From: Butyrivibrio fibrisolvens 16/4
GTDB lineage: Bacteria > Bacillota > Clostridia > Lachnospirales > Lachnospiraceae
Assembly (NCBI GenBank): GCA_000209815.1
Contig: FP929036.1
Span: forward strand, 1,439,824-1,503,823
Length of the DNA: 64,000 bases
Reading direction: 5' to 3'
The notes under the pieces are model-generated. The model saw nothing but the letters and a program-made list of their open reading frames with translations. It was not told the DNA's origin and did not search any database. Below are positions 2,424-45,541 of the stretch, piece by piece. The number at the start of each line of letters is the position of its first letter. Position 1 is the stretch's first letter. A program made the position numbers and the translations under genes.

Positions 2424-2475
2424 CACTAGTTCGTAAATGTGATACCGTTGTTGCTGAATTTAATAGAGTTCATAG

Positions 2476-2645
2476 AGATTAGGTGCCTATAGATTTCGTA
2501 TTTGCGAAGTTGGTATGGGTGAAAAGGGAATCTGGTGAGAATCCAGAGCGAAGCCGTCACTGTGTTAGGAAGTCTGCATTTATGTCACTGAGCATGCTTG
2601 GGAAGAAAATGTAGATGTTGATCGAAGTCAGGAGACCTGCCTATT
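2476..2645 (+). ncRNA. Cobalamin (adenosylcobalamin) riboswitch
   Basis: The leader contains 'AGGTGCC' at 2481, 'GGGAATCTGGTGAGAATCC' around 2529-2547, 'GTCACTGTG', and the B12 box 'AGTCAGGAGACCTGCC' at 2626-2641, in the canonical order. Such RNAs bind cobalamin and switch off downstream B12 synthesis or uptake genes. It lies 120 nt upstream of cbiK with an intrinsic terminator between, so control by transcription termination is inferred. It is the only B12 riboswitch I found and probably governs the whole 21-kb cluster. Confidence 0.93.
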
Positions 2646-2702
2646 CTTCAAATTAATGATTTGCGGACTTTCAAATCTTAATTCATGATTTTGATTGAAT
2701 TG

Positions 2703-30390: not shown

Positions 30391-31536
30391 ATGACAAAGA
30401 TTGATATAATTTCAGGGTTCCTGGGTGCAGGAAAAACCACTTACATTAAAAAGATGCTTGAAGAAGCATATAAAGGTGAGAAGGTAGTTCTTATTGAGAA
30501 CGAGTTCGGCGAGGTTGGTATCGACGGCGGATTCTTAAAGGATGCTGGTATCACTATATCAGAAATGAATTCAGGATGTATTTGCTGTTCACTTGTCGGA
30601 GATTTCGATAAGAATCTTCACGAAGTACTTGAGAAGTTCAGCCCAGATCGTATCCTTATTGAGCCATCAGGTGTTGGTAAGCTTTCAGACGTTATGACAT
30701 CTGTTATCAAGCTTGAGGAGACAGCTGATGTTAAGCTTTGCGGTCTTGTTACTGTTGTAAATGCTCTTAAGGCATCAAAGCAGATGAAGGCTTTTGGCGA
30801 GTTCTTTAATAATCAGATTGAGTTCGCTACTACAATCGTACTTTCACGTTCACAGACAGCTACAGAGGATCAGCTTGAGTTCTGCGTTAAGCAGATTCAG
30901 AAGCTTAATCCAAAGGCTGCTATTATCACAACTCCTTGGGATGAAATCACAGGAGAGAAGCTTCTTTCAGTTATGGAAGGGCAGGATAATCTCGCAGCTG
31001 ACTTAAAGCATCTTGCAGAGGAAGTTCACGAGGAACACGAGCACGAGCATCATCACCACGATCATGATGAGCACGAGCATCATCACCACGATCACGATGA
31101 GCACGACCACGAACATCATCACCACGATCACGATGAGCATGATCACGAGCATCATCATCACGATCACGATGAGCATGACCATGAACATCATCACGAGCAT
31201 GGTGAGAACTGTACCTGCGGATGTCACGACCACGATCACGAACATCATCACCATCATGCAGATGAAGTATTTAATACTTGGGGCAAGGAGACACCTCATA
31301 AGTTTGAGAAGTCTACAATCGAAAAGGCTATGAAGGCTTTTGCTAATACTACAGATTACGGTACAATCATCCGTTCAAAGGGTATGGTTGAGTCTGTAGA
31401 GGGCGGCTGGATTTACTTTGACTTTGTTGATGGAGAGTACGAGCTTCGTACAGGTGAGCCTGATTACACAGGACGTTTAGTAGTTATCGGTGCTGATATT
31501 GATGAGCACAAGATAGAAGAGTTATTTGGTTTATAA
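30391..31536 (+). CDS. COG0523 (CobW/P47K) GTPase with large His-rich repeat
   Basis: This 381-residue protein is a G3E-family metal chaperone candidate. It has Walker A 'GFLGAGKTT', the metal motif CxCC in 'NSGCICCSL' near residue 70, and 'IEPSGVG'. Between the GTPase and the CobW C-terminal domain, residues about 212-292 are a run of His, Asp and Glu in near-repeats of 'HHHHDHDEHDHE', ending with 'CTCGC'. Such regions bind Zn, Ni or Co. The strong 'AAGGAAGG' site precedes ATG 30391. It probably forms an operon with the next gene. Metal specificity is unknown. Confidence 0.88.
   Translation: MTKIDIISGFLGAGKTTYIKKMLEEAYKGEKVVLIENEFGEVGIDGGFLKDAGITISEMNSGCICCSLVGDFDKNLHEVLEKFSPDRILIEPSGVGKLSDVMTSVIKLEETADVKLCGLVTVVNALKASKQMKAFGEFFNNQIEFATTIVLSRSQTATEDQLEFCVKQIQKLNPKAAIITTPWDEITGEKLLSVMEGQDNLAADLKHLAEEVHEEHEHEHHHHDHDEHEHHHHDHDEHDHEHHHHDHDEHDHEHHHHDHDEHDHEHHHEHGENCTCGCHDHDHEHHHHHADEVFNTWGKETPHKFEKSTIEKAMKAFANTTDYGTIIRSKGMVESVEGGWIYFDFVDGEYELRTGEPDYTGRLVVIGADIDEHKIEELFGL
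31027..31260 (+). repeat. Tandem repeat encoding the His-rich metal-binding segment
   Basis: About four to five imperfect tandem units of 30-39 nt (CATCATCACCACGATCACGA-type) fill this stretch of the COG0523 gene. Codon-level variation between units (CAT/CAC, GAT/GAC) shows that the amino-acid pattern has been kept. Copy number may vary between strains by slippage. Confidence 0.85.
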
Positions 31537-31545
31537 GAGGATATT

Positions 31546-32502
31546 ATGGCAAAAGATATACCAGTTTATGTCTTTACTGGATTTATGGATAGTGGAAAAA
31601 CTACTCTTATTCAGGAGACATTGTTTGAAAACGACTTCGCTGCAGGCGGAGAGGATAGAATCCTCATTCTTTCTTGTGAGGATGGAGATGTAGAATACGA
31701 CATCGAAAAGCTTAAGACTATCAATGCTAAGGTGGCTACAATTGATTCTGAAGAGGAATTTAATCTTGAGAATCTTACACGTATTACAAAGGAATACAAT
31801 CCAGATGTTGTTTTTCTTGAGTACAATGGCACCTGGGGTGTTGATAAGATTTATGATGAGCCACTTCCAGAGGGATGGGTTGTTGCTCAGGGTCTTGCTA
31901 CAGTAGACGCTACTACATTCGAGAATTACCTTAATAATATGCGCACTATGATGATGGAGCAGCTTTTTAAGGCAGAGGTAGTTATTTTTAATCGTTGTAC
32001 AGATGCTACCCCAAAGACAAAGTTCCGTGGACAGATTAAATCTATGAATCGTCCTGCTCAGATTGTATATGAGCGTGCAGATGGTACAATCGATGATTCT
32101 CCAGAGGAGCTTCCATTTGATATTAGTGCTGATGTAATTGAAATTACAGATGCTGATTATGCTCTTTGGTTTATGGATTGTATGGAAACACCAAAGAAGT
32201 ACGATGGAAAGACAGTTCACTTCTTAGGTCTTGTCTATAATCCTAATGACAAAAAGCTTCGTAGAGACGTGTTTGTTCCAGGACGTTTTGCCATGACTTG
32301 CTGTGTTGAGGATATTCAGTTCCTAGGAATGAAATGCAAATGGGACAAGGCAGCAGACCTTGGTCACAGAAGCTGGATTGATATTACAGCTACTATTAAG
32401 GTTGAGTTCGCTAAGGAATACAAGGGTAAGGGTCCGGTTCTCTACCCTGTATCTGTAGAACCTGCTGAAAAGCCTGAAGACGAGCTTGTATACTTTAGTT
32501 AA
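31546..32502 (+). CDS. CobW-like GTPase fused to a DUF1980/YcgQ-like domain
   Basis: The N-terminal ~190 residues form a G3E-type GTPase with Walker A 'GFMDSGKTTL' and 'VFLEYNGTWG'; the CxCC motif is absent ('LSCEDGD' in its place). The C-terminal ~110 residues ('VHFLGLVYNPND', 'VPGRFAMTCCVEDIQFLG', 'PVLYPVSVEP') resemble the cytosolic-facing C-terminal domain of the YcgQ/TIGR03943 family. It starts 9 nt after the other COG0523 gene. The fusion suggests a role in metal transfer linked to the YcgQ-YcgR membrane system. The C-terminal call is from pattern memory. Confidence 0.7.
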   Translation: MAKDIPVYVFTGFMDSGKTTLIQETLFENDFAAGGEDRILILSCEDGDVEYDIEKLKTINAKVATIDSEEEFNLENLTRITKEYNPDVVFLEYNGTWGVDKIYDEPLPEGWVVAQGLATVDATTFENYLNNMRTMMMEQLFKAEVVIFNRCTDATPKTKFRGQIKSMNRPAQIVYERADGTIDDSPEELPFDISADVIEITDADYALWFMDCMETPKKYDGKTVHFLGLVYNPNDKKLRRDVFVPGRFAMTCCVEDIQFLGMKCKWDKAADLGHRSWIDITATIKVEFAKEYKGKGPVLYPVSVEPAEKPEDELVYFS

Positions 32503-32510
32503 TATATAAT

Positions 32511-32607
32511 TTACGCCTCTAGTAGCTATCAAGCTCTTGGTGTTACTCAAGGAGCCAATCTCGCGACGGAGTAATGCCAAGGCTTGAGAGTGTGACTAGA
32601 GGCGTAA
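32511..32607 (+). ncRNA. Candidate structured 3'UTR RNA element, copy 1
   Basis: The element starts 9 nt after the stop of the CobW fusion gene. A 13-bp outer stem (TTACGCCTCTAGT / ACTAGAGGCGTAA) encloses a second stem TCAAGC-(U bulge)-CTTGG / CCAAG-GCTTGA. A 2x2 internal loop and a third stem TTACTC / GAGTAA follow. A 20-nt apical loop contains AATCTCGC. No long T tract follows, so it is not a classical terminator. A second copy is at 43667. I do not recognise the family. Confidence 0.6.
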
Positions 32608-32643
32608 TTTATGTCAAAAATACAATTTTGTTCACTTTAACAC

Positions 32644-32672
32644 TTTACAATACTACAGTGAACAGATATAAT
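32644..32672 (+). promoter_or_regulatory. Sigma-A promoter of nfnAB
   Basis: TTTACA (32644-32649), a 17-nt spacer and a perfect TATAAT (32667-32672) lie 35 nt before the nfnA start, with 'GGGAAGGAG' as ribosome site. Confidence 0.8.
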
Positions 32673-32707
32673 ACGTTAATACGTTAAAAAGGGAAGGAGT
32701 CTAATTT

Positions 32708-33598
32708 ATGTATCCAATCGTAAAGAAGGAAAAGCTTTCTGATAAGATTTTCCTTATGGTGGTTAAGGCACCACGAGTTGCTGCCGGTTGTTTACCAGGT
32801 CAGTTTATTATCGTTAAGATTGATGAGGAGGGCGAGAGAATTCCTCTTACTATCTGTGATTATGATAGAGCAGAAGGAACTATCACTATTGTATTCCAGA
32901 CTGTTGGTGCTTCTACAGAGCGTATGGCTCTTCTTAATGAGGGGGATGCTTTTGCAGATTTTGTAGGCCCATTAGGACAGCCATCAGAGCTTTGCCTTGA
33001 AGAAGATTTAGAAGAGACTAAAAAGAAGAACATTGTCTTCATTGCAGGTGGTGTAGGTACAGCTCCAGTATATCCACAGGTTAAGTGGCTCAAGGAACAC
33101 GGTGTTAAGACTACAGTTATTATTGGTGCACGTTCTAAAGACATTCTTTTCTATGAGGATGAGATGCGTGCAGTTGCTGATGAGCTTTATCTTGCAACAG
33201 ATGATGGAAGCTACGGTTTCCATGGAAACGGTTGTCAGCAGCTTCAGGCACTTGTAGATTCTGGCAAGAAATATGATCATTGCGTAGCAATTGGTCCTAT
33301 GATTATGATGAAATTCGTATGTCTCCTTACAAAGGAGCTTGGCATTCCTACAGTTGTATCTATGAACCCAATCATGGTTGATGGAACAGGTATGTGTGGC
33401 GCTTGCCGTCTTGTGGTTGGCGATGAGGTTAAATTTGCCTGTGTAGATGGTCCAGAGTTTGATGGACACCTTGTAGATTTTGATCAGGCTATGGCTAGAG
33501 CAAAGCAGTACAAGACAGAGGAAGGCAGAGCCCTTCTTAAGCAGCAGGAAGGTGACACACATCACGGCGGATGTGGACATTGTGGAGGTGACAAGTAA
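32708..33598 (+). CDS. nfnA: NfnA-type FAD/NAD-binding subunit (NADH-dependent ferredoxin:NADP oxidoreductase, small subunit)
   Basis: This 296-residue protein belongs to the sulfide dehydrogenase / dihydroorotate dehydrogenase PyrK-like family. It has an FAD-binding domain ('GQFIIVKIDEEGERIPLTI'), an NAD site ('FIAGGVGTAPVYPQ') and a [2Fe-2S] motif in 'DGTGMCGACRLVV' with a further Cys in 'KFACVDG'. Together with the next gene it forms an electron-bifurcating transhydrogenase that links NADH, NADPH and ferredoxin in anaerobes. Its C-terminus is His/Gly-rich ('THHGGCGHCGG'). The stop overlaps the nfnB start (TAATG). Confidence 0.87.
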   Translation: MYPIVKKEKLSDKIFLMVVKAPRVAAGCLPGQFIIVKIDEEGERIPLTICDYDRAEGTITIVFQTVGASTERMALLNEGDAFADFVGPLGQPSELCLEEDLEETKKKNIVFIAGGVGTAPVYPQVKWLKEHGVKTTVIIGARSKDILFYEDEMRAVADELYLATDDGSYGFHGNGCQQLQALVDSGKKYDHCVAIGPMIMMKFVCLLTKELGIPTVVSMNPIMVDGTGMCGACRLVVGDEVKFACVDGPEFDGHLVDFDQAMARAKQYKTEEGRALLKQQEGDTHHGGCGHCGGDK

Positions 33599-34983
33599 TG
33601 GGAGACGTATTAGTAAGAGTACCTATTTCAGAGCAGGATCCTAAGGTTCGTGCTACAAACTTCGAAGAGGTTTGTCTTGGATATACAGAGGAAGAAGCAG
33701 TAGAAGAGGCAGGACGTTGCCTTAACTGCAAGAAGCCTATGTGTGTAGGCGGATGTCCTGTATCTATTAATATTCCTGCATTTATTGAGCAGGTTAAGGA
33801 ACGCAACTTCGAGAGAGCTTATGAGATTATCTCTGAGTCTTCAGCTCTTCCTGCAGTTTGTGGCCGTGTTTGCCCACAGGAATCACAGTGCGAGGGCAAG
33901 TGTATCCGTGGAATTAAGGGAGAGGCTGTAGCAATCGGAAAGCTCGAGCGTTTCGTTGCTGACTGGGCTAGAGAAAATGGCATCAAGCCAAAGAACACAT
34001 CTACTCCAAATGGCCATAAGGTGGCAGTTATTGGTTCAGGCCCTTCAGGTCTTACAGCAGCTGGAGACCTTGCTAAGCTTGGTTACGATGTTACTGTATT
34101 TGAGGCTCTTCACGAGATGGGTGGTGTACTTGTTTATGGTATTCCAGAATTCCGTCTTCCAAAGGATAAGGTAGTAAAGGCTGAGGTTGAAAACGTAAAG
34201 GCTCTCGGCGTTAAGTTTGAAAAGAACGTAATCATCGGTCGTTCAATCACTATCGATGAGCTTATGGAAAAGGAAGGCTTTGAAGCTGTATTTATAGGTT
34301 CTGGCGCTGGACTTCCAATGTTTATGCATATTCCTGGTGAGCAGGCTAATGGTGTATTCTCAGCAAATGAGTATCTTACACGTAACAACCTTATGAAGGC
34401 ATTCAAGGAGGGTTATGATACTCCTATTGCTCGTGGCAAGAAGGTTGTAGTTGTTGGTGGTGGTAATGTTGCTATGGATGCTGCCCGTACAGCACTTCGT
34501 CTTGGAGCAGAGGTACATGTTGTATATCGTCGTTCTGAGGCAGAGCTTCCTGCAAGAGCAGAGGAAGTACATCACGCTAAGGAAGAGGGCGTTATCTTTG
34601 ATCTTCTCCAGAATCCAGTTGAAATCCTTGTTAATGAGGAAGGAAGTGTTCGTGGATGTAGAGTTATCAAGATGGAGCTTGGTGAGCCAGATGCTTCAGG
34701 TCGTCGTCGTCCAGTAGAGATTCCAGGAAGTGAATATGAGATTGAGTGTGATACAGTTATTATGTCACTTGGAACTTCTCCAAATCCACTTATCTCTAGC
34801 ACAACAGTTGGACTTGAAACAAATAAGAAGGGTTGCCTCATTGCTACAGAGCAGGGTGCAACTACAAAGGATGCAGTATTCGCAGGTGGTGATGCCGTAA
34901 CAGGTGCCGCTACAGTAATTCTTGCTATGGGTGCTGGTAAGACAGCAGCTGCAGCAATCGATGAATATTTTAAAACAAAATAA
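33598..34983 (+). CDS. nfnB: NfnB-type flavoprotein subunit (glutamate synthase small-chain family)
   Basis: This 461-residue protein has an N-terminal ferredoxin-like part with two [4Fe-4S] Cys sets ('GRCLNCKKPMCVGGCPV' and 'VCGRVCPQESQCEGKC'). Two dinucleotide folds follow ('AVIGSGPSGLTAAGDLA' for FAD and 'VVVVGGGNVAMDAARTA' for NADP). The family includes the GltD-like subunit of glutamate synthase; directly following NfnA, the bifurcating transhydrogenase is the better call. A terminator follows the stop. Confidence 0.87.
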   Translation: MGDVLVRVPISEQDPKVRATNFEEVCLGYTEEEAVEEAGRCLNCKKPMCVGGCPVSINIPAFIEQVKERNFERAYEIISESSALPAVCGRVCPQESQCEGKCIRGIKGEAVAIGKLERFVADWARENGIKPKNTSTPNGHKVAVIGSGPSGLTAAGDLAKLGYDVTVFEALHEMGGVLVYGIPEFRLPKDKVVKAEVENVKALGVKFEKNVIIGRSITIDELMEKEGFEAVFIGSGAGLPMFMHIPGEQANGVFSANEYLTRNNLMKAFKEGYDTPIARGKKVVVVGGGNVAMDAARTALRLGAEVHVVYRRSEAELPARAEEVHHAKEEGVIFDLLQNPVEILVNEEGSVRGCRVIKMELGEPDASGRRRPVEIPGSEYEIECDTVIMSLGTSPNPLISSTTVGLETNKKGCLIATEQGATTKDAVFAGGDAVTGAATVILAMGAGKTAAAAIDEYFKTK

Positions 34984-35022
34984 AAAAAGCACCTCAGTCC
35001 AATTAGGACGAGGTGCTTTTTT
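34983..35022. terminator. Bidirectional terminator between nfnB and the small convergent ORF
   Basis: AAAAAAGCACCTC pairs with GAGGTGCTTTTTT and an inner GTCC/GGAC hairpin closes the top. The A and T tracts at the two ends allow termination of both converging transcripts. Confidence 0.9.
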
Positions 35023-35029
35023 ATATTTG

Positions 35030-35158
35030 CTAATCGTACTGACCAAATGCGTACTTAAAGAATGAAACTGGTTCCTCACCTTCCATCTTCTTGTTTTTGC
35101 AGTACTTTTCATAATCTGAATAAATTGTGTACATCTGGAATGATACTTCTTCGAACAT
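35030..35158 (-). CDS. Small hypothetical protein, 42 residues
   Basis: A minus-strand ORF runs from ATG at 35158 to TAG at 35030, preceded by an ideal ribosome site (GGAGGAAATAAGA). The product (MFEEVSFQMYTIYS...) is rich in Tyr, Lys and Glu, soluble, and contains one Cys. The ideal start region and the shared terminator at its 3' end support a real gene. I do not recognise a family. Confidence 0.65.
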   Translation of the reverse strand: MFEEVSFQMYTIYSDYEKYCKNKKMEGEEPVSFFKYAFGQYD

Positions 35159-35278
35159 TCTTATTTCCTCCTAAAAACTCTCTTTTCTTAATAACCTTTG
35201 GTATGATAAACCCTTACATGTACTTTGTCAACAAAATAATTGTAAATATATTGTGAAAAATGGACAAACCCTTTTCTA

Positions 35279-35307
35279 TTGAGTTAGTTTCCTTTTGCTG
35301 ATACAAT
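35279..35307 (+). promoter_or_regulatory. Promoter of the galactoside operon with inverted half-sites
   Basis: TTGAGT (35279-35284), a 17-nt spacer and TACAAT (35302-35307) form a promoter. AGTTTCC at 35286-35292 and GGAAACT at 35317-35323 are inverted copies that flank the -10 box and could bind the TetR-family product. The wide spacing (24 nt) is unusual for one dimer. Confidence 0.55.
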
Positions 35308-35357
35308 AAGACTATAGGAAACTCGATATACAAATTACAGTTTTTGGGAGTGAAAAT

Positions 35358-35918
35358 ATGAATGAAAGAATATTAGAGGGTGCCTTAAACGTTTTCAAGG
35401 CAAAGGGACCAAAGTTCACTATGGACGATCTTGCTGCAGAAATGAAGATGAGCAAGAAGACAATCTACACAGTATTCAGTGATAAAAATGAACTTATGTG
35501 TGAGATGGTGGATTATGCATTTAATACTATCAAAGAAGAAGAGGATAAGGTTTATTACAATGATGGCCTTTCTACAGTAGAGAAGCTTCGTGGTATTCTT
35601 GTGGTTTTGCCTGAAAATAGCTATGGTTTCGATTACGCTGCGATGCAGCAAATGGCTGAAAAGTTCCCTATGGCTCACGAGAAGCTTAATAATCGTCTTG
35701 AAAGTGGTTGGGAGAAAACCTTTGATTTACTAAATAGGGGTATGGCCGAAGGAAAGATTAGAAAGATTAATCTTGAAATCTTTAAGCTAATGTACGGCTC
35801 CAGTGTGGAAAGACTCCTTATGGGTGATTTCCTTAAATCCTCAAATATGGATTATCCAAAAGCGTTAAATGAAGTAGTAGAAGTACTCATTGACGGAATA
35901 CTTATAAAGGAAGAATAA
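35358..35918 (+). CDS. TetR-family transcriptional regulator
   Basis: The 186-residue protein has an N-terminal helix-turn-helix ('FTMDDLAAEMKMSKKTIYTVF', about residues 17-38) and a divergent helical ligand domain. It is the first gene of the galactoside operon, with the GH2 gene starting at the base after its stop. It probably autoregulates the operon in response to a sugar or sugar derivative; TetR control of galactosides is less common than LacI or AraC control. Confidence 0.85.
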   Translation: MNERILEGALNVFKAKGPKFTMDDLAAEMKMSKKTIYTVFSDKNELMCEMVDYAFNTIKEEEDKVYYNDGLSTVEKLRGILVVLPENSYGFDYAAMQQMAEKFPMAHEKLNNRLESGWEKTFDLLNRGMAEGKIRKINLEIFKLMYGSSVERLLMGDFLKSSNMDYPKALNEVVEVLIDGILIKEE

Positions 35919-38378
35919 ATGGCACAGAGAATATATTTAGATAGAAAATGGCGTTTTAATGAAAATTTTGATGAGGATATGATTGATTCTCCTATGGAGG
36001 AATGCGTACTTGTAAATATTCCTCACACTGTTAAGGTTACTCCGCTTTCATATTTTGATGAGAGCATTTATCAAATGGTTAGCGGATATCAGAAAAGCAT
36101 TTTTGCGCCTGCTCAGTGGGAAAATCAATTTGTATCACTTGTATTTGAAGGTGTTGGTCATTCCTGCGATGTTTATATTAATGGAAAGCACGTTAAACAC
36201 CACGATTGTGGGTATACAGCATTTTCTGTTGATATTACTAAGGTAATAAAGGTGGGAGAGGAAAATCTCATCACTGTAAAGGTGGATTCAAGAGAAACAC
36301 TTAATCAGCCTCCATTTGGTTACGTAATCGATTACATGACTTACGGAGGTATATACAGAGATGTTTATTTTGAAGTAAAGAATAAGATTTCCTTCAAGGA
36401 ACTATCTGTTACACCTACACTGTTAGAACGAGTATCCACAGCAAAACGATCTCCTAAACAGATTAAGGTTATGAATGTTAAGGGTATCGTAAAGACGGAA
36501 TGCTATTTCCGTAGGAATATTTACAAACCAGCCTGCGATGAACGTGTTTTTATAAAGCAATATCTTGATGATCAGCTTCTTATAGCACAGCCTGTTGGTG
36601 GTTTAGAGGAACGTGATGATGGCTATTATGTCAGCGTTACCAGTGCACCTACAGATGTAAAGTTATGGGATATTGAAAGTCCACATCTTTATACTGTTAA
36701 GACTCAGCTGGTTATGGATGACAAGGTAGTAGATGAGGTATGTGATACTGTAGGCTTTAGAAGCTCAGAATTTAGAAAGAACGGCTATTATCTTAATGGT
36801 AGAAAGGTAAAGCTTAGAGGTTTAAACAGACATCAGTCATATCCTTATGTAGGTTATGCTATGCCAGAATCTATGCAGCGACTTGATGCAAAGATTCTTA
36901 AGGAAGAGCTTGCACTTAATGCGGTGAGAACATCTCATTATCCACAGTCCCATTACTTCCTTGATGAATGTGATAAATTAGGACTTCTCGTGTTTACAGA
37001 GATACCTGGCTGGCAGCATATCGGTGGAAAAGAATGGCAGGATATTGCTGTTGAAAATACTAAAGATATGGTACGCCAGTATCGCAATCATCCTTCAATC
37101 ATTCTTTGGGGAGTTCGTATAAACGAATCTCCAGATAATGATGAGTTTTATGCTAGAACAAACGCAGCAGCCCACGAGCTTGATCCTACAAGACCTACAG
37201 GCGGTGTTAGATGTATTGCAAAAAGTAATCTTCTAGAGGATGTATATACATACAATGATTTCTCATTCTCTGGAAAGAATAATGGTTGCGCAAAGAAAAC
37301 TGATATCACTTCAGACGAAGAGAAGGCATATCTCATTAGTGAGTACAATGGTCATATGTTCCCAACAAAGCCATTTGACTGGGAGGAGCATAGACAGGAG
37401 CATGCCATTAGACACGCTACTGTTCTTGATGCAGTAACAGGAGAGGCTGATATTGCAGGAGCATTTGGCTGGTGCATGTTTGATTACAACACCCATAAGG
37501 ATTTTGGAGCTGGAGATAGAATCTGTTATCACGGCGTAATGGATATGTTCAGAAATCCAAAGCTGGCTTCATCAGTTTACGCAGCATTCTCGGATACAGA
37601 AACAGTACTCGATGTCACCACAAGCTTTGATATTGGAGAGCACCCAGCCTGCAATAGAGGTAAGTCTTATATTATCAGCAATGCTGATTCAGTAAGGATG
37701 TACAAGAACAATGTGCTTATAAAGGAATACTTCCCAGAGGATAGCAAATTCCAGAATCTCAAGCACGGTCCTATTCTTATAGATGATTTTGTAGGTGATG
37801 CCATAGAAAAGGATGGTGAGTTTACCAAGGGGCAGGCAAAGCTCATTAAGAAAATGCTTAATGAAGTTACCTTAAAGGGCTTTAGACCAACACCATCTCT
37901 TGCCTGGACAGCATTTAGGCTTGTTGTATTCCATAGGGTCAGCCCAAGTAAAGCTGTTCCAATCTACAATAAATTCGTTGGTGATTGGGGTGGAGAATCA
38001 AGGGAATACAAATTCGAGGCTATCAAGGATGGCGAGGTAGTGAAGACTATCACTAAGGCAGCAGTCAGATCGGCTCATATAGATTTAAAGCCAAGCCATA
38101 CACTTTTAACAGAGCTTCATACATATGATGTGGCAAATGTTCGCGTAAGAATATTAGACCAGAATGATAATCAGTTGTTCTATTTTGCTCAGCCAGTGAG
38201 CTTTGAAATAGAAGGTCCATTTGAAATAATTGGACCAAAAACAGTTGCCCCAATGGGTGGCTGCACGGGCGTATACATAAAATCCATTGGAGAGGATGGA
38301 GACGGAAAACTTACTGTCACCTGTGATGGTTTGGAGCCTGTCTCAATTGGTCTTTCTGTGGAATGTTTAACAAAATAA
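35919..38378 (+). CDS. Glycoside hydrolase family 2 enzyme (beta-galactosidase-like)
   Basis: This 819-residue enzyme has no signal peptide, so it acts inside the cell. It has a sugar-binding beta-jelly roll, an Ig-like domain and a TIM barrel. The acid/base Glu is in 'GVRINESPDN' near residue 399 and the nucleophile Glu in 'YLISEYNGHM' near 475. 'LRGLNRHQSYPYVG' is the GH2 signature region. A ~200-residue C-terminal Ig-like extension follows. The exact substrate (beta-galactoside or beta-glucuronide) is open; the GH36 neighbour favours galactosides. Confidence 0.85.
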   Translation: MAQRIYLDRKWRFNENFDEDMIDSPMEECVLVNIPHTVKVTPLSYFDESIYQMVSGYQKSIFAPAQWENQFVSLVFEGVGHSCDVYINGKHVKHHDCGYTAFSVDITKVIKVGEENLITVKVDSRETLNQPPFGYVIDYMTYGGIYRDVYFEVKNKISFKELSVTPTLLERVSTAKRSPKQIKVMNVKGIVKTECYFRRNIYKPACDERVFIKQYLDDQLLIAQPVGGLEERDDGYYVSVTSAPTDVKLWDIESPHLYTVKTQLVMDDKVVDEVCDTVGFRSSEFRKNGYYLNGRKVKLRGLNRHQSYPYVGYAMPESMQRLDAKILKEELALNAVRTSHYPQSHYFLDECDKLGLLVFTEIPGWQHIGGKEWQDIAVENTKDMVRQYRNHPSIILWGVRINESPDNDEFYARTNAAAHELDPTRPTGGVRCIAKSNLLEDVYTYNDFSFSGKNNGCAKKTDITSDEEKAYLISEYNGHMFPTKPFDWEEHRQEHAIRHATVLDAVTGEADIAGAFGWCMFDYNTHKDFGAGDRICYHGVMDMFRNPKLASSVYAAFSDTETVLDVTTSFDIGEHPACNRGKSYIISNADSVRMYKNNVLIKEYFPEDSKFQNLKHGPILIDDFVGDAIEKDGEFTKGQAKLIKKMLNEVTLKGFRPTPSLAWTAFRLVVFHRVSPSKAVPIYNKFVGDWGGESREYKFEAIKDGEVVKTITKAAVRSAHIDLKPSHTLLTELHTYDVANVRVRILDQNDNQLFYFAQPVSFEIEGPFEIIGPKTVAPMGGCTGVYIKSIGEDGDGKLTVTCDGLEPVSIGLSVECLTK

Positions 38379-38402
38379 CTAATAAGAGGTAGGGGATAAG
38401 TA

Positions 38403-39869
38403 ATGCAAGATAAGAGTAAAGTAATCTTTGGCAACGTAATAGCTGACAAAGATTATAAAAAAGCATGCAAATCTAAGAAAAAGTATGCAAAGAAATTTGG
38501 GGATGATTCAAATGTTGATTACAACATTGTCATCGAAAAAAACGCTCACATTGGCGATATGTTGGGCGTGCATGATGTTCTTTTAAAGGACGGGGCTTCT
38601 GCTGAGAAATTTGATACTGAAAAGGGCATTATTGTTGGAAATATCCGTATGGGATTTGGTCACTATCGTATTTCTATGGCTATGGCTTCAGCAGCAAAGG
38701 CACTTGGATACACTCCATACTGGATGGATTTAAATGGATATCCACAGACTACCTGCACAAAGGTAATCAGCCATCAGAATGATTTGTATTCAATGGGCTC
38801 ACGTATGTCAAAGAACAAGCTCTTTAACAAATTCATCTGGGAGCCAGCAAATTACGAATGGTTTAGAAAGCTTTCTTATAATTCCTCAGACCAGAAGAAT
38901 GCAGAGCTTATGGCACCTGTTTATAAGAATGTGCCAAAGGATATTCCTGTAATTGGTACACATGTATGGCCTGCACAGGCAGCTATTCATGCTGGTATGA
39001 AGTACGTTGTTAATGCCATTCCTGATAACTGGCCAATGGCCCTTCATTTTGCAGAGGGAAGTGTGCATACCATTCAGTGTAAGAACGCATATATGGGTTA
39101 TCGCATTTGTAATGGTATGGCTCCAAAGAATGCAGTTTGTAATCCTATGCCAAATGATGATTTGGTTTATACAGGCCACTATATTGATCATGAGCTTGTT
39201 AGCAATATTGAATCAGATTGTGATGCAAGAATGGCTAGAAAGCGTAATGGAAAGGCTATGCGTTTCCTTCTTACAATTGGTGGAGCAGGGGCACAGAAAG
39301 AGATTTTTGCAGCAATTATCAAATATCTTCTTCCTGCAATCAAAGAAAACAAGGCTATGCTTTACGTAAATGTTGGCGATTATAAAAATGTTTGGGATGA
39401 TCTTATTAATGAAATTCCAGAGATGAAGGCAGTATCTACAGAGCACTTTAACGAGTTTGAAGCTACTGCTAAATTTGCAGAGGATGCCATTACAGGTGAT
39501 GTTTCAGGTATCCACGGCTTCTATCACGAGAACATTTTCGAGGCTGTATATGTTACAAACCTTCTTATGAGAAGCTGTGATGTTCTTGTTACAAAGCCAT
39601 CTGAGCTTGCCTTTTATCCTATTCCAAAGCTCTTCATTAAGAGAGTTGGAAAACACGAGATGTGGGGGGCTATCCATTCAGCGGAAATGGGTGATGGCAC
39701 ATTAGAATGCAGAGATATTCCACACACAATCCAGATGATTGATATGTTTATGAAGGATGAAAAGCTGCTTTCAGATATGTGTGAGAGTATAAAAGTTAAT
39801 AAAACAATCGGTCTCTATGACGGTGCTTACAAGGTAGTAGAGCTTGCTATGGGACTTAAGAATAAGTAA
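38403..39869 (+). CDS. Uncharacterised GT-B-like protein in a galactoside operon
   Basis: This 488-residue soluble protein has 'GIIVGNIRMGFGHYRISMA' near residue 80, like the N-terminal loop of MurG/MGDG-synthase GT-B enzymes. 'FLLTIGGAGAQKEIF' and 'CDVLVTKPSELAFYPIPKLF' occupy the places of the nucleotide-sugar-binding half. I do not recognise a characterised member. Its place between the GH2 enzyme and the transporter suggests a role in handling the imported sugar, perhaps as a glycosyltransferase. Ribosome site 'GAGGTAGGGG' precedes ATG 38403. Confidence 0.6.
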   Translation: MQDKSKVIFGNVIADKDYKKACKSKKKYAKKFGDDSNVDYNIVIEKNAHIGDMLGVHDVLLKDGASAEKFDTEKGIIVGNIRMGFGHYRISMAMASAAKALGYTPYWMDLNGYPQTTCTKVISHQNDLYSMGSRMSKNKLFNKFIWEPANYEWFRKLSYNSSDQKNAELMAPVYKNVPKDIPVIGTHVWPAQAAIHAGMKYVVNAIPDNWPMALHFAEGSVHTIQCKNAYMGYRICNGMAPKNAVCNPMPNDDLVYTGHYIDHELVSNIESDCDARMARKRNGKAMRFLLTIGGAGAQKEIFAAIIKYLLPAIKENKAMLYVNVGDYKNVWDDLINEIPEMKAVSTEHFNEFEATAKFAEDAITGDVSGIHGFYHENIFEAVYVTNLLMRSCDVLVTKPSELAFYPIPKLFIKRVGKHEMWGAIHSAEMGDGTLECRDIPHTIQMIDMFMKDEKLLSDMCESIKVNKTIGLYDGAYKVVELAMGLKNK

Positions 39870-39897
39870 AAAGGGAAGGATTTTAAGGGTAATTATA

Positions 39898-41311
39898 ATG
39901 GAAACACGAAAAAATTAACAGGTACTGAGAAATTTGCCTACGGATTGGGAGCTGTAGGTAAGGATATGGTGTATATGCTTTCAGCATCATACATTTCAAT
40001 ATACTTTTTGGACGTAATGGGAATATCTGCAGTAGCTATAGGTATTCTTCTTATGGTTGCAAGAGTATTTGATGCTTTTAACGACCCATTAATGGGTGTT
40101 TTGGTTGCTAAAACAAAGTCCCGTTGGGGTAAGTTCAGACCTTGGCTTATGGTTGGAACTGTCACTAATGCTATCGTTCTTTATATGATGTTTAGCATTC
40201 CACCTTCACTTGATGGAGCAGGGCTTGTTGCATATGCATCTGTAACCTACATTCTTTGGGGTGTTACTTATACAATGATGGATATTCCATATTGGTCAAT
40301 GGTTCCTGCTTTTACAGAGTCAGGTAAGGAAAGAGAGGGCCTTTCTGCATTTGCTCGTTCTTGCGCAGGTGTTGGTTCAGCACTTGTTTCTATTATTACT
40401 GTTATGAGTGTTGGTGCCCTTGGTAAGATGTGTGGTGGCAATACTGATAATGAAATCAACAGATTGGGCTATAGCAAATTTGCACTTATCATTGCTGTAA
40501 TCTTTGTTGTGTTTATTTCTATTACATGTCTATTTATTAAGGAAAAATCTACAGTAGATATGAAGTCAGCTTCTATCAAAGACATGTTTAAGGCTCTTAT
40601 TCAGAACGATCAGGCTATGACAGTTGTTATTGCCATTGTTATGATTAACACTGCACTTTATTTTACTCAGCAGTTGGTATACTTCTTCTTAAAGTATGAT
40701 TTTAGCCCTGCCACATATCGTGATGATTTTACTCTTTTTAATACTGTAGGTGGTGGTTGCCAGATATTAGCCATGATGCTTTTATTCCCAATACTTAGAA
40801 AGTTTATGGATACAGTAAAAATATTCTATACTTGCTTTGGAATGGCTGTTTTCGGATACATTTTGATTATTATCATTGCACTTTCAGGTACAGGAAAAAT
40901 TACATGGCTTCTTATTCCAGCAGCTCTCATTATGGCTGCGGTAGGTGTGCTTAATGTAATCATTACTGTATTCCTTGCAAACACAGTAGATTATGGTGAG
41001 TGGAAAAATTACAGAAGAGATGAATCGGTTATTTTTCAATGCAGACTTTTGTAGTTAAGCTTGCATCTGGTATATCAGGATTCATGTCATCAATGGTTCT
41101 TGCTATATTTAGTATTAATCCAGATAAAGAGGCAAAAGTAGTTAAAGCTATATCAGATTCACAGAGATTTGGCCTTAGATTTACAATGACACTTATTCCG
41201 ATTGCTGTTCTTGCAGTTGGTGCTATTGTATTCAAGAAGCGTTATATCCTTTTTGATACAAAGATGGATGAAATTACTGAAGAAATTGAAGGCAGAAGAG
41301 CTGTTTCATAA
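39898..41311 (+). CDS. GPH-family sugar:cation symporter, apparent frameshifts
   Basis: This transporter has about twelve membrane segments and the GPH/MelB features 'FAYGLGAVGKDMVYML', 'DAFNDPLMGVLVAKTKSRWGKFRPWL' and 'DIPYWSM'. The main frame breaks at T5 41032-41036 and resumes one frame over ('QTFVVKLASGISGF'). ATG 39898 would need one extra A at 39902-39904 to read 'MENTKKLTG'; otherwise translation must begin at TTG 39945. With both corrected the protein has 471 residues, the usual length. It presumably imports the galactosides cut by the flanking enzymes. Confidence 0.82.
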
Positions 41312-41326
41312 GATAGGAGAATAAAA

Positions 41327-43663
41327 ATGATTAAAGCTGATGGTAAGGTATTTGTTTTAAATACTAAAAATACTACATACGCATTTCGTGTAATGGAGAC
41401 AGGTCAGCTGGAACATTTGTATTACGGAGGGCTCATCCAGGAGGATGAGCCATCTGTGCTTAAGGAAAAACGTGCATTTGCTCCAGGAAATACTGTTACA
41501 TACGATGCTGAACATCCAGAGCTTACTTTAGAGGATGTTAGACTTGAGACTTCAGCCATTGGGAAGGGTGATTATAGAGAGCCTATGGTGGAGGTAGTCT
41601 GCGCAGATGGAAGCAGCACTCTTGATTTTATCTACGATAGCTATCAGGTGATAAATTGCAAGCCAGAGCTTGAAGGACTTCCTAGCTCATATGACGAGGA
41701 TGACGCTGCAAAGACTCTTGAAATAACACTTAAAGATAAGAATCACGGACTAACACTAAAGCTTTCATATTCTGTTTTTGAAGAGTGCGATGTTATCACT
41801 CGAAGCGCTAAGTTCATCAACACCTCTAACGAGACAGTTAAGCTGACACGTATGCTTTCCATGCTTCTTGATTTTGATAAACCAGGACTTAAGGTTACTT
41901 CTTTCCATGGTTCATGGACAAGGGAAATGAACAAGTCGGATGTTATTCTTACTGCAGGAAAGCTTGTTAATTCTTCATTTACAGGTACCAGCTCTAACAG
42001 ATGCAATCCATTCTTTATGGTATCAGATGCTGATGCTACAGAGACTGATGGGGATGTGTACGGATTTAACCTGGTATATTCAGGTAATCATTATTCTGCT
42101 ACAGAGGTTTCACCTTGGGGCAAGACCAGAGTGGCGTATGGTATAAATCCTCAGAACTTCTCTTGGACTCTTGAGGCAGGAGAGGAATTCCAGGCGCCAG
42201 AGGCAGTTATTACATATTCTGGTGCTGGATTTAGACAAATGAGCTTGAATATGCATGAATTTGTTCGTGAACATATTACCAGAGGTGTTTGGAAACATAA
42301 GGAGCGCCCAGTCCTTATTAATAGCTGGGAGGCATCATATTTTGACTTTACAGAAAAGTCTCTTGTAAAGCTGGCTAAGACCGCAAAGGACACAGGCATA
42401 GAATTGTTTGTTATGGATGATGGCTGGTTTGGAGATAGAAATGACGATAAACGAGCACTAGGCGACTGGGATATCATTAACAAAAAGAAGCTTCCTGGTG
42501 GCTTAGAAGGACTGTCTAAGAAGATTAATGATCTTGGTCTTATGTTTGGTCTTTGGGTAGAGCCTGAGATGATTAACGTAGACAGCGAGCTTTATCGTAA
42601 ACATCCTGAATGGGCTATCGACATCCCAGGAATGAATCATGCAGAAGGACGTAATCAGCGTCTCCTTGATCTTTGCAACCCAGAAGTTGTGGATTATATG
42701 ATTGACAGAATGAGTGAAGTTTTTGCTACTCCTGGACTTTCATACATCAAATGGGATATGAACCGTAATTTCTCGGATTATTATTCAAAGTATCTTCCAG
42801 CTGAAAAGCAGCAGGAGGTTGGTCACAGATATGTTCTTGGATTCTATCGTCTTCTTAGAACACTTGCTGAGAAATTCCCTAACATACTTATGGAGGGATG
42901 CGCTTCAGGTGGAAATAGATTTGATCTTGGAGCCCTTTGCTACTACCCACAGATTTGGGCCAGCGATAACACAGATGCAGTCAGCCGTCTTGTAATTCAG
43001 AATGGATATTCATATGGCTATCCACAGTGTACATACACAGCCCATGTATCTGCCTGTCCTAATCATCAGACTCTTCGTGTAACACCTATCGAAAGCCGAT
43101 TTGCAGTAGCAAGCTTTGGTGTTCTTGGATACGAGCTTAATCTTAATGACGTAAGTTCAGAGGACATTGCTAGTGTTAAGGCTCAGATTGAACTTTACAA
43201 ATCCTACAGAAAGACTCTTCAGTTTGGTGATTTCTACCGTCTAAAGGATGGAAACATCTACGAGTGGAGTATTGTAGATAAGAATAAAGAAACTGCTGTA
43301 ACTATGCTTATGCAGCGAGAGATTATGGCAGGAGAACAGTATCTTAGAATAGAACAGGTTGGTCTTGATAATGATACAAAGTACCATTTCTTCGGCAGAA
43401 AGCTAGAATACAATCTCAAGGGCTTTGGAGATTTGGTAAATACTGTTGCACCAGTTCATATCAAGCAAGATGGTGTACTTCACAATGTCATTGCCAAGTT
43501 CGTAAAAATGCCAGGGGAATCAGAGGACTTCGTAGCCAGCGGCTCAACTCTTAACAACGCAGGTGTAAAGCTTGCTCAGTCCTTCGTAGGAACAGGCTAT
43601 AACGATCAGGTTCGTTACTTCCCAGACTTTGGAGCACGTCTGTACTTCGTAGAAAAAGAATAG
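41327..43663 (+). CDS. Alpha-galactosidase, GH36
   Basis: This 778-residue enzyme lacks a signal peptide and acts in the cytoplasm on raffinose- or melibiose-type sugars. The GH36 nucleophile Asp is in 'YIKWDMNRNF' near residue 476 and the acid/base Asp in 'IWASDNTDAV' near 546. 'FVMDDGWFG' and 'FGLWVEPEMIN' are further signatures. It starts 15 nt after the transporter with 'AGGAG' upstream and ends the operon. Confidence 0.92.
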   Translation: MIKADGKVFVLNTKNTTYAFRVMETGQLEHLYYGGLIQEDEPSVLKEKRAFAPGNTVTYDAEHPELTLEDVRLETSAIGKGDYREPMVEVVCADGSSTLDFIYDSYQVINCKPELEGLPSSYDEDDAAKTLEITLKDKNHGLTLKLSYSVFEECDVITRSAKFINTSNETVKLTRMLSMLLDFDKPGLKVTSFHGSWTREMNKSDVILTAGKLVNSSFTGTSSNRCNPFFMVSDADATETDGDVYGFNLVYSGNHYSATEVSPWGKTRVAYGINPQNFSWTLEAGEEFQAPEAVITYSGAGFRQMSLNMHEFVREHITRGVWKHKERPVLINSWEASYFDFTEKSLVKLAKTAKDTGIELFVMDDGWFGDRNDDKRALGDWDIINKKKLPGGLEGLSKKINDLGLMFGLWVEPEMINVDSELYRKHPEWAIDIPGMNHAEGRNQRLLDLCNPEVVDYMIDRMSEVFATPGLSYIKWDMNRNFSDYYSKYLPAEKQQEVGHRYVLGFYRLLRTLAEKFPNILMEGCASGGNRFDLGALCYYPQIWASDNTDAVSRLVIQNGYSYGYPQCTYTAHVSACPNHQTLRVTPIESRFAVASFGVLGYELNLNDVSSEDIASVKAQIELYKSYRKTLQFGDFYRLKDGNIYEWSIVDKNKETAVTMLMQREIMAGEQYLRIEQVGLDNDTKYHFFGRKLEYNLKGFGDLVNTVAPVHIKQDGVLHNVIAKFVKMPGESEDFVASGSTLNNAGVKLAQSFVGTGYNDQVRYFPDFGARLYFVEKE

Positions 43664-43666
43664 ATA

Positions 43667-43762
43667 AAAAACACTCCATAGCTAACAATCTCTTGGGGTT
43701 ACTCAAAAGGCAATCTCGCCATTGAGTAATACCAAGGATTGTTGGTGTAATGGAGTGTTTTT
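43667..43762 (+). ncRNA. Candidate structured 3'UTR RNA element, copy 2
   Basis: The element starts 4 nt after the alpha-galactosidase stop. A 13-bp outer stem (AAAAACACTCCAT / ATGGAGTGTTTTT) encloses AACAATC-(U bulge)-CTTGG / CCAAG-GATTGTT. TTACTC / GAGTAA and a 19-nt loop with AATCTCGC follow. The inner core matches copy 1, while the outer and middle stems differ but remain paired. The A and T ends here also let it serve as a bidirectional terminator with the convergent MCP gene. Confidence 0.62.
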
Positions 43763-43763
43763 C

Positions 43764-45485
43764 TTATACTATAGAAAAATAATTCATTTTGTTGTTTAAG
43801 GATACTGCAAGGTCCTTTAATTCAGAAGCAGCTTCGTTAATCATAGCGAATGTTGTATTTAATTCTTCCATAGAAGCTGTTGTCTCTTCTGAAGATGCTG
43901 CATTCTGCTGAGAAATTGCAGAAAGTTCAGTGATGATATCGTGGAAGCTTGCTTTTAGGTTGTTAAGCATAGCAACCTTGTCAGCGATAGTTTTTGTGCT
44001 GCTATCTACGTTATTTACGTTTGCAACCACACCATCAATATCAGTTTTTGTGCTATTAAGCTGGGTATTCTGTTGATTGAAAGCATCGTTTAGCTTTTCG
44101 ATTGTGCTTACACTTCGTTCTGACTCAGCAATAAGGCTTTCAATTGTATCATTAATAGAAATAGCTGCATCCTTTGATTGAACAGCAAGCTTTCCGATTT
44201 CTGTAGCAACTACTGTAAATCCCTTACCAGCTTCACCAGCTCTGGCAGCTTCGATAGAAGCATTTAAAGAAAGAAGGTTAGTCTGGTCTGAAATATTTGT
44301 AATTGAGCTAGATGCCTCAGCAATATTTCTTACAGCTTCGTTTGTAGCAAGAATCTGCTTATGGATTTCTGACATTGCTACCATAACCTGCTCATTCTGC
44401 ACCATAAGCTGATTAATAGCATCTACTGTATTGTTTGCATCCTGAAGCATTTCTGTAGCGGCAGAAGAGAGCTCCTTAACGCTAGAAGAAATATCATCAA
44501 TACTGTTACCCATTTCAATTGTATTTGTAAGTGAAGTTTCTACATTTTCAGCCTGTGCAACTGCACCCTTGCTGATATCTTCAACGGCATTAGCCACTTG
44601 ATCAGCAACATGAAGAGCAGTATCTGCGGAAGATGCTAGATTATGACCAGACTTTGTAACCTCTTCAGAAAGGTCCATAGTAGTCTGGATAACATCTGTA
44701 AGCTTGTCTCTAAGCTCTGCTGAGCTTTCAGCGATAACACCGATTTCATCATTTCTATCAAATGTATTATCAGGTATGTAAAATGAAAGCTGACCATCCT
44801 CGAGCTGCTTAAGACTATCTACGATTTCCTGGATTGCCTTAGTAGACTTCTTAACCATTCTTCGACCTAAAATAAGATCTATAATTGCTGCAATCAAGAA
44901 GATAGCAACTAAAGTAAGGATAGCTTTTGTTAAAGCTGCCTGAACTTCATCAATTTCTTTTCCGGCAAATAGCATACCAACTACAGAACCATCTGTATTC
45001 TTAAGTGGAATATAGTAAGCATACCAGTTGCTAGTGCTTCCATCGATAGTAAAGTCTGTAACAAGATAATCTTCGCCATTTTTTAATACTTTTTCAACAA
45101 CAGCATCAGAGGCTTTTGTACCTTCTAAGCGCTTGCCAGTGGAATCTACAAGAGAAGTGATGGCACGAGTATCCCCGTAGAAAACTGTGAAGCTGATACC
45201 TGTTTCTTCTTTAATCATATCAAGCTGATTCTGGAAATCATCGTGAAGAGCGTAGCTGCCTTTTGTAAGTGTTCCATTGGAAAGAACCTTCCAATCGCCA
45301 GCCCACTGGTTATCAAGCTGACTCTGTATAAACTGAGCAGAAGTGTGAAGCTCGTCTGCAAATGAATCGTAGTAAGCTTTTCTAATATTATAAGTGCCAA
45401 CAGCTGAAAGACCGAGGGCCATTATAATTGCAAGTGCCGTAGCAAATAATAATACTTGTCGAACTAATTTCTTATCCTTTTTCAT
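43764..45485 (-). CDS. Methyl-accepting chemotaxis protein with single-cache sensor
   Basis: This 573-residue receptor has a first membrane segment ('[20 protein letters not shown]'), a single-cache-like external domain (about 40-180), a second membrane segment near 185-205, a HAMP region, and the signalling domain. The signalling hairpin tip reads '[20 protein letters not shown]'. I chose ATG 45485, which follows 'AGAAAGGATT'; the longer frame from 45518 has no ribosome site. A promoter and an inverted repeat lie upstream. Confidence 0.9.
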
Positions 45486-45541
45486 TATAATCCTTTCTAG
45501 GCTGTCATCTTCAGCCAAATCAAACCGTGAAAAACAGTCAG

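Follow-up and report, generated by a model that had tools for sequence, protein, structure and literature searches.

Are the two long hairpins that stand directly behind stop codons in a 64,000-nucleotide stretch of the Butyrivibrio fibrisolvens 16/4 genome (contig FP929036.1, positions 1,439,824 to 1,503,823 of the forward strand; the window, hereafter, is the whole of this stretch) selected RNA structures or copies of a dispersed DNA repeat? A first-pass annotation of the window had noted that these elements, here E1 and E2, share a core while their outer stems differ and yet remain paired, and had read this as selected RNA structure and not a simple DNA repeat. Both are members of a genus-wide family of covarying hairpins of about 100 bases, which is apparently undescribed. 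The parts of the two window copies are as follows.

32511..32607, + strand: E1 (copy 1), whole hairpin, 8 bases past the CobW/DUF1980 stop codon
32511..32523, + strand: E1 outer stem, 5′ arm TTACGCCTCTAGT, copy-specific
32595..32607, + strand: E1 outer stem, 3′ arm ACTAGAGGCGTAA, its base without a T run of at least 4
32524..32594, + strand: E1 core, with internal loop, middle stem, upper stem and apical GA/GA; inverted in the related genomes G022 and G003
A 32524 / GUG 32592-32594, + strand: internal loop of the E1 core (family consensus GUA)
32535, + strand: bulged U of the E1 middle stem
32552..32566, + strand: E1 apical tandem GA/GA internal loop around GC(CAATCTC)GC
43667..43762, + strand: E2 (copy 2), whole hairpin, 3 bases past the stop codon of a glycoside hydrolase family 36 (GH36) gene
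43667..43679, + strand: E2 outer stem, 5′ arm
43750..43762, + strand: E2 outer stem, 3′ arm, ending TTTTT

A hairpin family of one genus, probably Pseudobutyrivibrio

Both hairpins were found where they had been reported. In each, a 13-bp outer stem is followed inwards by a middle stem with a single bulged U and then by a UUACUC/GAGUAA stem, and each starts just past a same-strand stop codon (the reading frames end at 32502 and 43663, with 8 and 3 bases between). The minimum energy is -55.4 kcal/mol for E1 (z -9.4) and -52.6 kcal/mol for E2 (z -11.1), and none of 200 shuffles matched either value. Folding alone cannot name the strand, since the reverse strands form good folds as well (z -7.4 and -11.1). 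The minimum-energy folds depart from the earlier description in the middle stem, where the 2x2 internal loop proposed for both copies is absent from E1 and is a 1x1 loop in E2. The apex, described as a loop of 19-20 nt, is itself structured in E1 as G.GA.GC(CAAUCUC)GC.GA.C, a tandem GA/GA internal loop, while E2 lacks this motif. A simple terminator scan of the window, covering loops of 3-8 bases only, names neither element.

A blastn search of the 3.16 Mb single-contig genome of the window with E1 returned 21 matches, two of which are E1 itself and its reverse strand. A MAFFT alignment of 21 copies, including E1 and E2, was made with no structure model, and from it a covariance model, R1, was built. 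R1 finds 51 forward-strand places in the same genome at E-values of at most 5.2e-9, the complete list of 60 rows being made up of these 51 places, seven reverse-strand echoes and two weak matches. Fifty of the 51 places were read with their flanks, and counts on 50 copies refer to these. Within the window, R1 recovers E1 (E 1.4e-28) and E2 (E 2.2e-23), both of which are seed members, and scores their reverse strands at about 1e-4; nothing else in the 64 kb falls below E 0.18.

When ThyA was compared with named genomes, Pseudobutyrivibrio, including P. xylanivorans and P. ruminis, stood in the ten best rows at 92-96% identity, on which ground the genus of the window's genome is taken as Pseudobutyrivibrio, to which it probably belongs. 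R1 matches are present in 24 of 25 same-genus genomes, with 1 to 95 rows each (counts that include reverse-strand echoes among at most 99 scored candidates), and the only genome without a match is 83% complete. Genomes of other families of the same order yielded R1 matches in 0/16 cases. An order-wide sample (295 genomes, 129 genera) gave eight matched genomes and a class-wide sample (391 genomes, 222 genera) two, all of them in Pseudobutyrivibrio. The filters in the searches of the genus and the 16 genomes, of the order and of the class were stricter, so that weak matches are lost, and the candidates scored per genome numbered no more than 99, 13 and 10, respectively.

A match to a known Rfam family had been named as an observation that would refute the earlier reading, and none was found: no family of Rfam (release 15) reaches its gathering score for E1 or E2, and the sub-threshold matches of the hairpin are mainly eukaryotic microRNA hairpins. 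The same scan places a cobalamin riboswitch elsewhere in the window (2464-2658, + strand; 91.9 bits). A viral or plasmid origin was also considered and rejected, as E1 is unmatched in phage and plasmid records and a 21-base loop string has no exact match in viral contigs. Literature searches on repeats or RNAs of Butyrivibrio and Pseudobutyrivibrio and on Lachnospiraceae repetitive extragenic palindromes (REPs) returned no description of the family among the matches listed, subscription papers being outside their scope, and a word search of the main text of one REP survey (PMC12306157) finds neither Butyrivibrio nor Lachnospiraceae.

Covariation and the folding strand

Two paralogues with different terminator stems would look much like E1 and E2, and the comparison of two copies could therefore not show selection. 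The larger family permits a stronger comparison. Read from outside in, the element has an outer stem, the A/GUA internal loop, three pairs, a mismatch, a CAAGC/GCTTG stem, the bulged U, a long stem and the apex. Across the 50 copies the outer stem measures 4 to 15 bp (determined by script) and is closed by GT against AC in 48, while the foot of the core reads GTAG in 29 copies and GTAA in 18. The unpaired letters are nearly invariant, with the A and the bulged U in 50/50 copies and the G, U and A of the GUA loop in 50/50, 50/50 and 45/50, respectively. The family has subfamilies, and the apex falls into several sequence types (CAATCTC, ATCTA, GTGTTA and others). By rule, 37 of the 49 copies in which an apical part is present follow a single plan, a pair of opposed GA steps flanked by paired letters (shuffles: mean 3.6, maximum 11).

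The preservation of stems in further copies, which the first-pass annotation had left to be checked, is evident in both alignments. Both were judged against a 30-pair structure read off the E1 fold. In the model-free MAFFT alignment of 21 copies, 93.3% of stem cells are paired and 23 of the 30 pairs are changed on both sides, and none of 500 shuffles attains any of the five measures applied. In the 50-copy alignment, which was fitted to R1 and thus leans towards the model, 26/30 pairs are changed on both sides (358 cells) and 93.8% of stem cells are paired, a value reached by none of 500 shuffles, while every slid version remains at or below 44%. The family thus combines covarying stems with conserved unpaired letters, the features expected of a structured cis-acting RNA.

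Compensatory change is also seen between species. In 16 between-species comparisons at shared sites, hand-picked for a common core type, partly non-independent and with the three outermost pairs dropped, both partners differ in 24 pairs, and pairing is retained in 24 of 24 (5000 shuffles of the changed partners: mean 4.9, most 13). In A3, one shared element was entered under L094, not L102. An example of compensatory change is the site before a GH3 gene, where genomes G008 and G014 carry the same core within GTCTGT/ACAGAC and GCCTGT/ACAGGC stems.

The strand of the folded molecule is indicated by mismatches of two kinds. At the 27 inner pairs, with one reverse-strand echo left out, non-Watson-Crick cells comprise 59 G-U, 8 A-C and 29 others, and the excess persists without the two G-U-richest columns (29 to 7). 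A constraint acting on both DNA strands should give equal numbers of G-U and A-C, and the folded molecule is thus probably single-stranded and of the strand analysed. The copies are also strongly oriented: among the 38 with same-direction neighbors, 34 are sense and 4 antisense (p 6e-7). One convergent label (L095) is probably wrong, as a frame of 341 codons opens on the same strand 15 bases past the element, and with this copy relabelled the counts become 35 sense to 4, with 8 convergent. Taken together, the G-U excess, the sense orientation and the location at gene 3′ ends favor RNA over single-stranded DNA used by a transposase.

Turnover at shared sites and comparison with known repeats

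The sites in related genomes show the family to be in flux. At the E1 site, G022 and G003 retain the same outer stem around a core in the opposite direction, which in its own direction is 93-94% identical to E1, and G001 holds another core type. Judged by eye, a hairpin of similar stem that lacks the core stands in G006, G015, G018 and G041, what seem to be decayed copies stand in G014 and G017, and further genomes have terminators that are small or unrelated. A recurring terminator with a T run, also recognized by eye, occupies this site in five genomes (L123, L125, L126, L128 and L135, of G005, G043, G016, G012 and G002, respectively), its arms being close to GTTACTATT / ATAGTAAC. The E2 site holds elements with other outer stems in G005, G022, G042, G011, G006 and G044, and other ends elsewhere. 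Between thyA and folA the element is present in the window's genome, L177 and L181 and absent from, for example, L174, L178 and L180, while the plsY-gpsA and rnc-smc sites exist in filled, empty and half-deleted versions.

At plsY-gpsA, two close relatives, G000 and G022, whose flanks are 91% identical, differ in core type although both have the same GCTGGT/ACCAGC stem, while G000 and the more distant G003 (flanks 74-80%) have a common core type, suggesting that cores are replaced in place or that sites are re-used. The same site harbors in G013 and G043 (L278, L286) a larger variant whose ends are similar but which has, instead of the top, a long stem containing an inner GAGAGTATAG...CGATGAG stretch. 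Near-identical cores occupy two sites in G008 and G014, and since the G008 copies share AATGAG and CGGACTA around the outer stem, the stem seems to travel with the core there. In G018 (L342:3321-3539), two elements lie about 17 bases apart in opposite directions. An apparent second, G+C-rich intergenic repeat (e.g. GGGAGCATGGAAG or similar) is seen at L124 and L186, with like stretches at L148, L150, L175 and L176; judged by eye, some of the intergenic sites used by the hairpin hold this repeat in relatives of the window's genome.

The core-less hairpins at E1 orthologues would fit insertion into hairpin loops at that site, but as a general rule such insertion was rejected, since the empty gpsA, thyA and smc sites that were read lack such a hairpin and the outer stem seems to have moved along with the core in G008. 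A pattern search for solo hairpins, with short-stem flanks around a tiny interior, returned 15 across 12 of 29 genomes (reversed control pattern: 0), of which 12 pair at both free positions. Candidate target-site duplications were noted by eye only, with no consistent duplication established. Integron-like cassettes were likewise rejected, since the genes at the element clusters examined in G008 and G014 are ordinary ones whose order is conserved between the two; a further four clusters were scanned for elements only.

With empty, decayed and inverted sites and 51 places in one genome, the statement that the hairpins are selected RNA structure and not a simple DNA repeat proves half right: covariation, invariant letters and the signs of strand uphold its first part, and the dispersal of the family contradicts its second. 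The same observations raise the possibility that the element is a selfish repeat of the REP kind or like a miniature inverted-repeat transposable element (MITE), its structure serving as the recognition signal for a transposase acting on single-stranded DNA, and effects on messages, if any, being a by-product. We consider this explanation doubtful, though it is the one among the alternatives that deserves most weight. It accounts for the 51 places, the subfamilies, the empty and decayed sites, the near-identical cores that G008 and G014 carry at two sites and the GTAG at the core foot in 29/50 copies, and in the parts of the REP literature covered a GTAG tag, a location downstream of genes and alternative complementary stem residues are all known (PMC3733652). 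It does not account for compensatory changes at shared sites across species or for the strong sense orientation. Moreover, tyrosine transposases (PF01797) were detected in no more than 10 of the 29 genomes of the genus, some as partial matches, while elements are present in 24 of 25, and the single PF01797 gene of the window's genome (L111) has no element in its 3.3-kb locus. Spread by a REP-associated tyrosine transposase (RAYT) is thus not supported here, although past loss of the enzyme is possible.

Rearrangement of the palindrome bears on a second alternative, that arm-to-arm template-switch repair maintains complementarity in a neutral palindrome without selection. The inverted core in an unchanged E1 outer stem and the core-less solo hairpins show that the palindrome does rearrange. 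Such repair would, however, remove the bulged U and the A/GUA asymmetry, both of which are nearly invariant, and it predicts neither the 59 to 8 ratio of G-U over A-C nor the sense bias; we regard it as improbable.

By analogy, the nearest kinds of element are REPs, YPAL, the bcr repeats and NEMIS, and the family most likely works like a REP/YPAL/bcr-type repeat with a proposed role in the transcript. REPs are dispersed imperfect palindromes lying mainly behind genes, with subfamilies that carry alternative complementary stem letters and with patchy presence (PMC3733652). The Pseudobutyrivibrio family resembles them in its dispersed imperfect palindromes behind genes, subfamilies, patchiness and GTAG-like foot, and its location mainly downstream of coding regions (43/50 copies) is that of GTAG REPs. 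It differs in size, with about 100 bases, a 30-pair stem and internal loops against the 20-40 bp of REPs, in its GTAR, which lies inside a longer stem with G and T paired where the REP tag is unpaired, and in that a search for elements at the transposase locus of the window's genome revealed no RAYT association. Identification as a GTAG REP as defined was rejected on the paired tag, the different size and the lack, in the window's genome, of a RAYT gene flanked by the repeat. The words Firmicutes and Clostridi do not occur in the text of PMC3733652 that was covered.

YPAL/RU-2 of Yersinia is similar in that its targets span or adjoin dyad symmetry and in that empty and filled sites are known, but it is 168 bp long with target duplications of 3-26 bp, while the present family has no established consistent duplication. 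Among the group-specific repeats bcr1-bcr18 of the Bacillus cereus group, some are MITE-like; bcr10 and bcr18 have conserved secondary structure and lie in untranslated regions and between operon genes, and bcr3 correlates with longer half-life (PMC3446304). These differ from the present family in organism and sequence. The Correia/NEMIS element of Neisseria is a small repeat that forms a hairpin once transcribed, for which an action on neighboring messages via RNase III has been proposed, with 24-bp terminal inverted repeats and TA termini (PMC2229807) that are not seen by eye in the Pseudobutyrivibrio element. Of MITE features, imperfect inverted ends and empty sites are observed; the search for a parent transposon covered PF01797 only.

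Gene context and a proposed role at message ends

Gene neighbors of the copies were taken from mechanically called reading frames. A same-strand frame precedes 43/50 copies, in 33 cases within 30 bases, a same-strand start follows within 30 bases in 27/50, and 8 or 9 of the 50 lie between convergent genes. The neighborhood of the window copies contains the following features.

31546..32502, + strand: gene upstream of E1, CobW nucleotide-binding domain with C-terminal DUF1980
32644..32672, + strand: promoter-like TTTACA-17-TATAAT (11/12) between E1 and the next gene, a consensus match only
32708..33598, + strand: first gene after E1, protein with a DHODB iron-sulphur domain
from 33598: Fer4_20/Pyr_redox_2 protein after the DHODB-domain gene
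41327..43663, + strand: gene upstream of E2, GH36 alpha-galactosidase (Melibiase)
43764..45518, - strand: convergent gene behind E2, methyl-accepting chemotaxis protein

The gene pair behind E1 is one that we take to be NfnAB-like. The CobW/DUF1980 gene is itself adjoined by another CobW-domain gene (30391-31536, + strand), whose product contains a long repetitive stretch rich in histidine, aspartate and glutamate. The promoter-like site is one of two found in the 64-kb stretch, with 1.1 expected, and its position between E1 and the next gene suggests that E1 may end a transcription unit. E2, flanked by an A tract before and a T tract behind and set between convergent genes, is on its sequence of the terminator type.

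The length of the outer stem follows this context. A following start was scripted as a same-strand start at most 30 bases away that opens at least 60 codons, stem lengths and neighbor labels being entered by hand. Among the 43 copies behind a same-strand gene, the outer stem reaches at least 9 bp in 16 of the 18 without a following start and in 2 of the 25 with one (Fisher p 7.6e-8); for all 50 copies the figures are 16/23 and 2/27, respectively. The core is found in both operon and unit-end settings, and the outer stem is thus what differs between them.

Long outer stems that gather where no gene closely follows, together with the T run at the stem base of E2 and about ten other copies, might indicate ordinary intrinsic terminators with an elaborate loop, but this is very unlikely to describe the family. 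By rule, a T run of at least 4 is present in 12 of the 50 copies at most, one of these being a mis-anchored window. E1, which had been said to lack a U tract, indeed has no such run at the 3′ base of its 13-bp stem, and a promoter-like site stands behind it. Many copies lie between closely spaced same-strand genes, as at thyA-folA, and a conserved core is not needed for termination. Least probable of all is a riboswitch or attenuator class controlling the downstream gene. A complex, conserved, RNA-like structure at most 30 bases from the following same-strand start in 27/50 copies would fit such a class, but no common pathway is evident among the downstream genes, which we presume, from their translations, to be folA, gpsA, smc, dapA, a GH3 gene and others, and 8 or 9 of the 50 copies lie between convergent genes.

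The reading that we favor, to which we assign a probability of about one half, is that of a mobile REP/YPAL/bcr-like repeat whose transcript is a selected 3′-end or intercistronic hairpin, with a longer outer stem at unit ends. That the RNA-like structure is under selection is supported by the covariation among the 50 copies and at shared sites, the invariant unpaired letters, the G-U asymmetry, the sense orientation and the scarcity of T runs. The hairpin would be transcribed at the 3′ end of the upstream message or between two operon genes, where a putative cell factor may use the A/GUA internal loop, the bulged U and the GA/GA loop of the apex to recognize it. The main effect of the hairpin would probably fall on the upstream message, whose 3′ end it would fix or protect. 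At unit ends, the longer outer stem and an optional U tract would place the same core inside an intrinsic terminator, while inside operons the outer stem of about 6 bp would let the polymerase read on. The family would spread as a small non-autonomous element via some enzyme.

Several observations weigh against this reading. Copies come and go between species, and no single site therefore looks essential. Sites that appear to be shared may in part be re-insertions, as for G000 and G022 at plsY-gpsA, and the inverted core in G022 and G003 shows that the sense strand is not strictly kept at the E1 site. Among one-sided changes at shared sites, of which there are 23, 13 still pair and 10 leave the pair unpaired in one or both of the two sequences compared. 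The covariance model was, furthermore, built on the strand analysed. Finally, hairpin DNA can repair one of its arms from the other by template switching and so acquire covariation in the absence of selection, although this should also erase the invariant bulge and loops.

A bolder and distinctly tentative extension of the favored reading is that a dedicated Pseudobutyrivibrio RNA-binding factor recognizes the hairpin, by its A/GUA loop, bulged U and GA/GA apex, on dozens of messages in each genome and sets their 3′ ends or lifetimes. The family would then be a mobile repeat turned genus-wide post-transcriptional regulon, in which host selection adjusts nothing but the outer stem, towards either read-through or termination.

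It has long been asked whether palindromic repeats between genes are junk, selfish DNA or regulatory RNA, and this family provides sharp material for the question. Dozens of copies are present in most of the same-genus genomes searched, and natural empty, decayed, inverted and core-less sites are available for comparison. The occurrence of one core within short outer stems in operons and long outer stems at unit ends provides a directly testable contrast at RNA 3′ ends.

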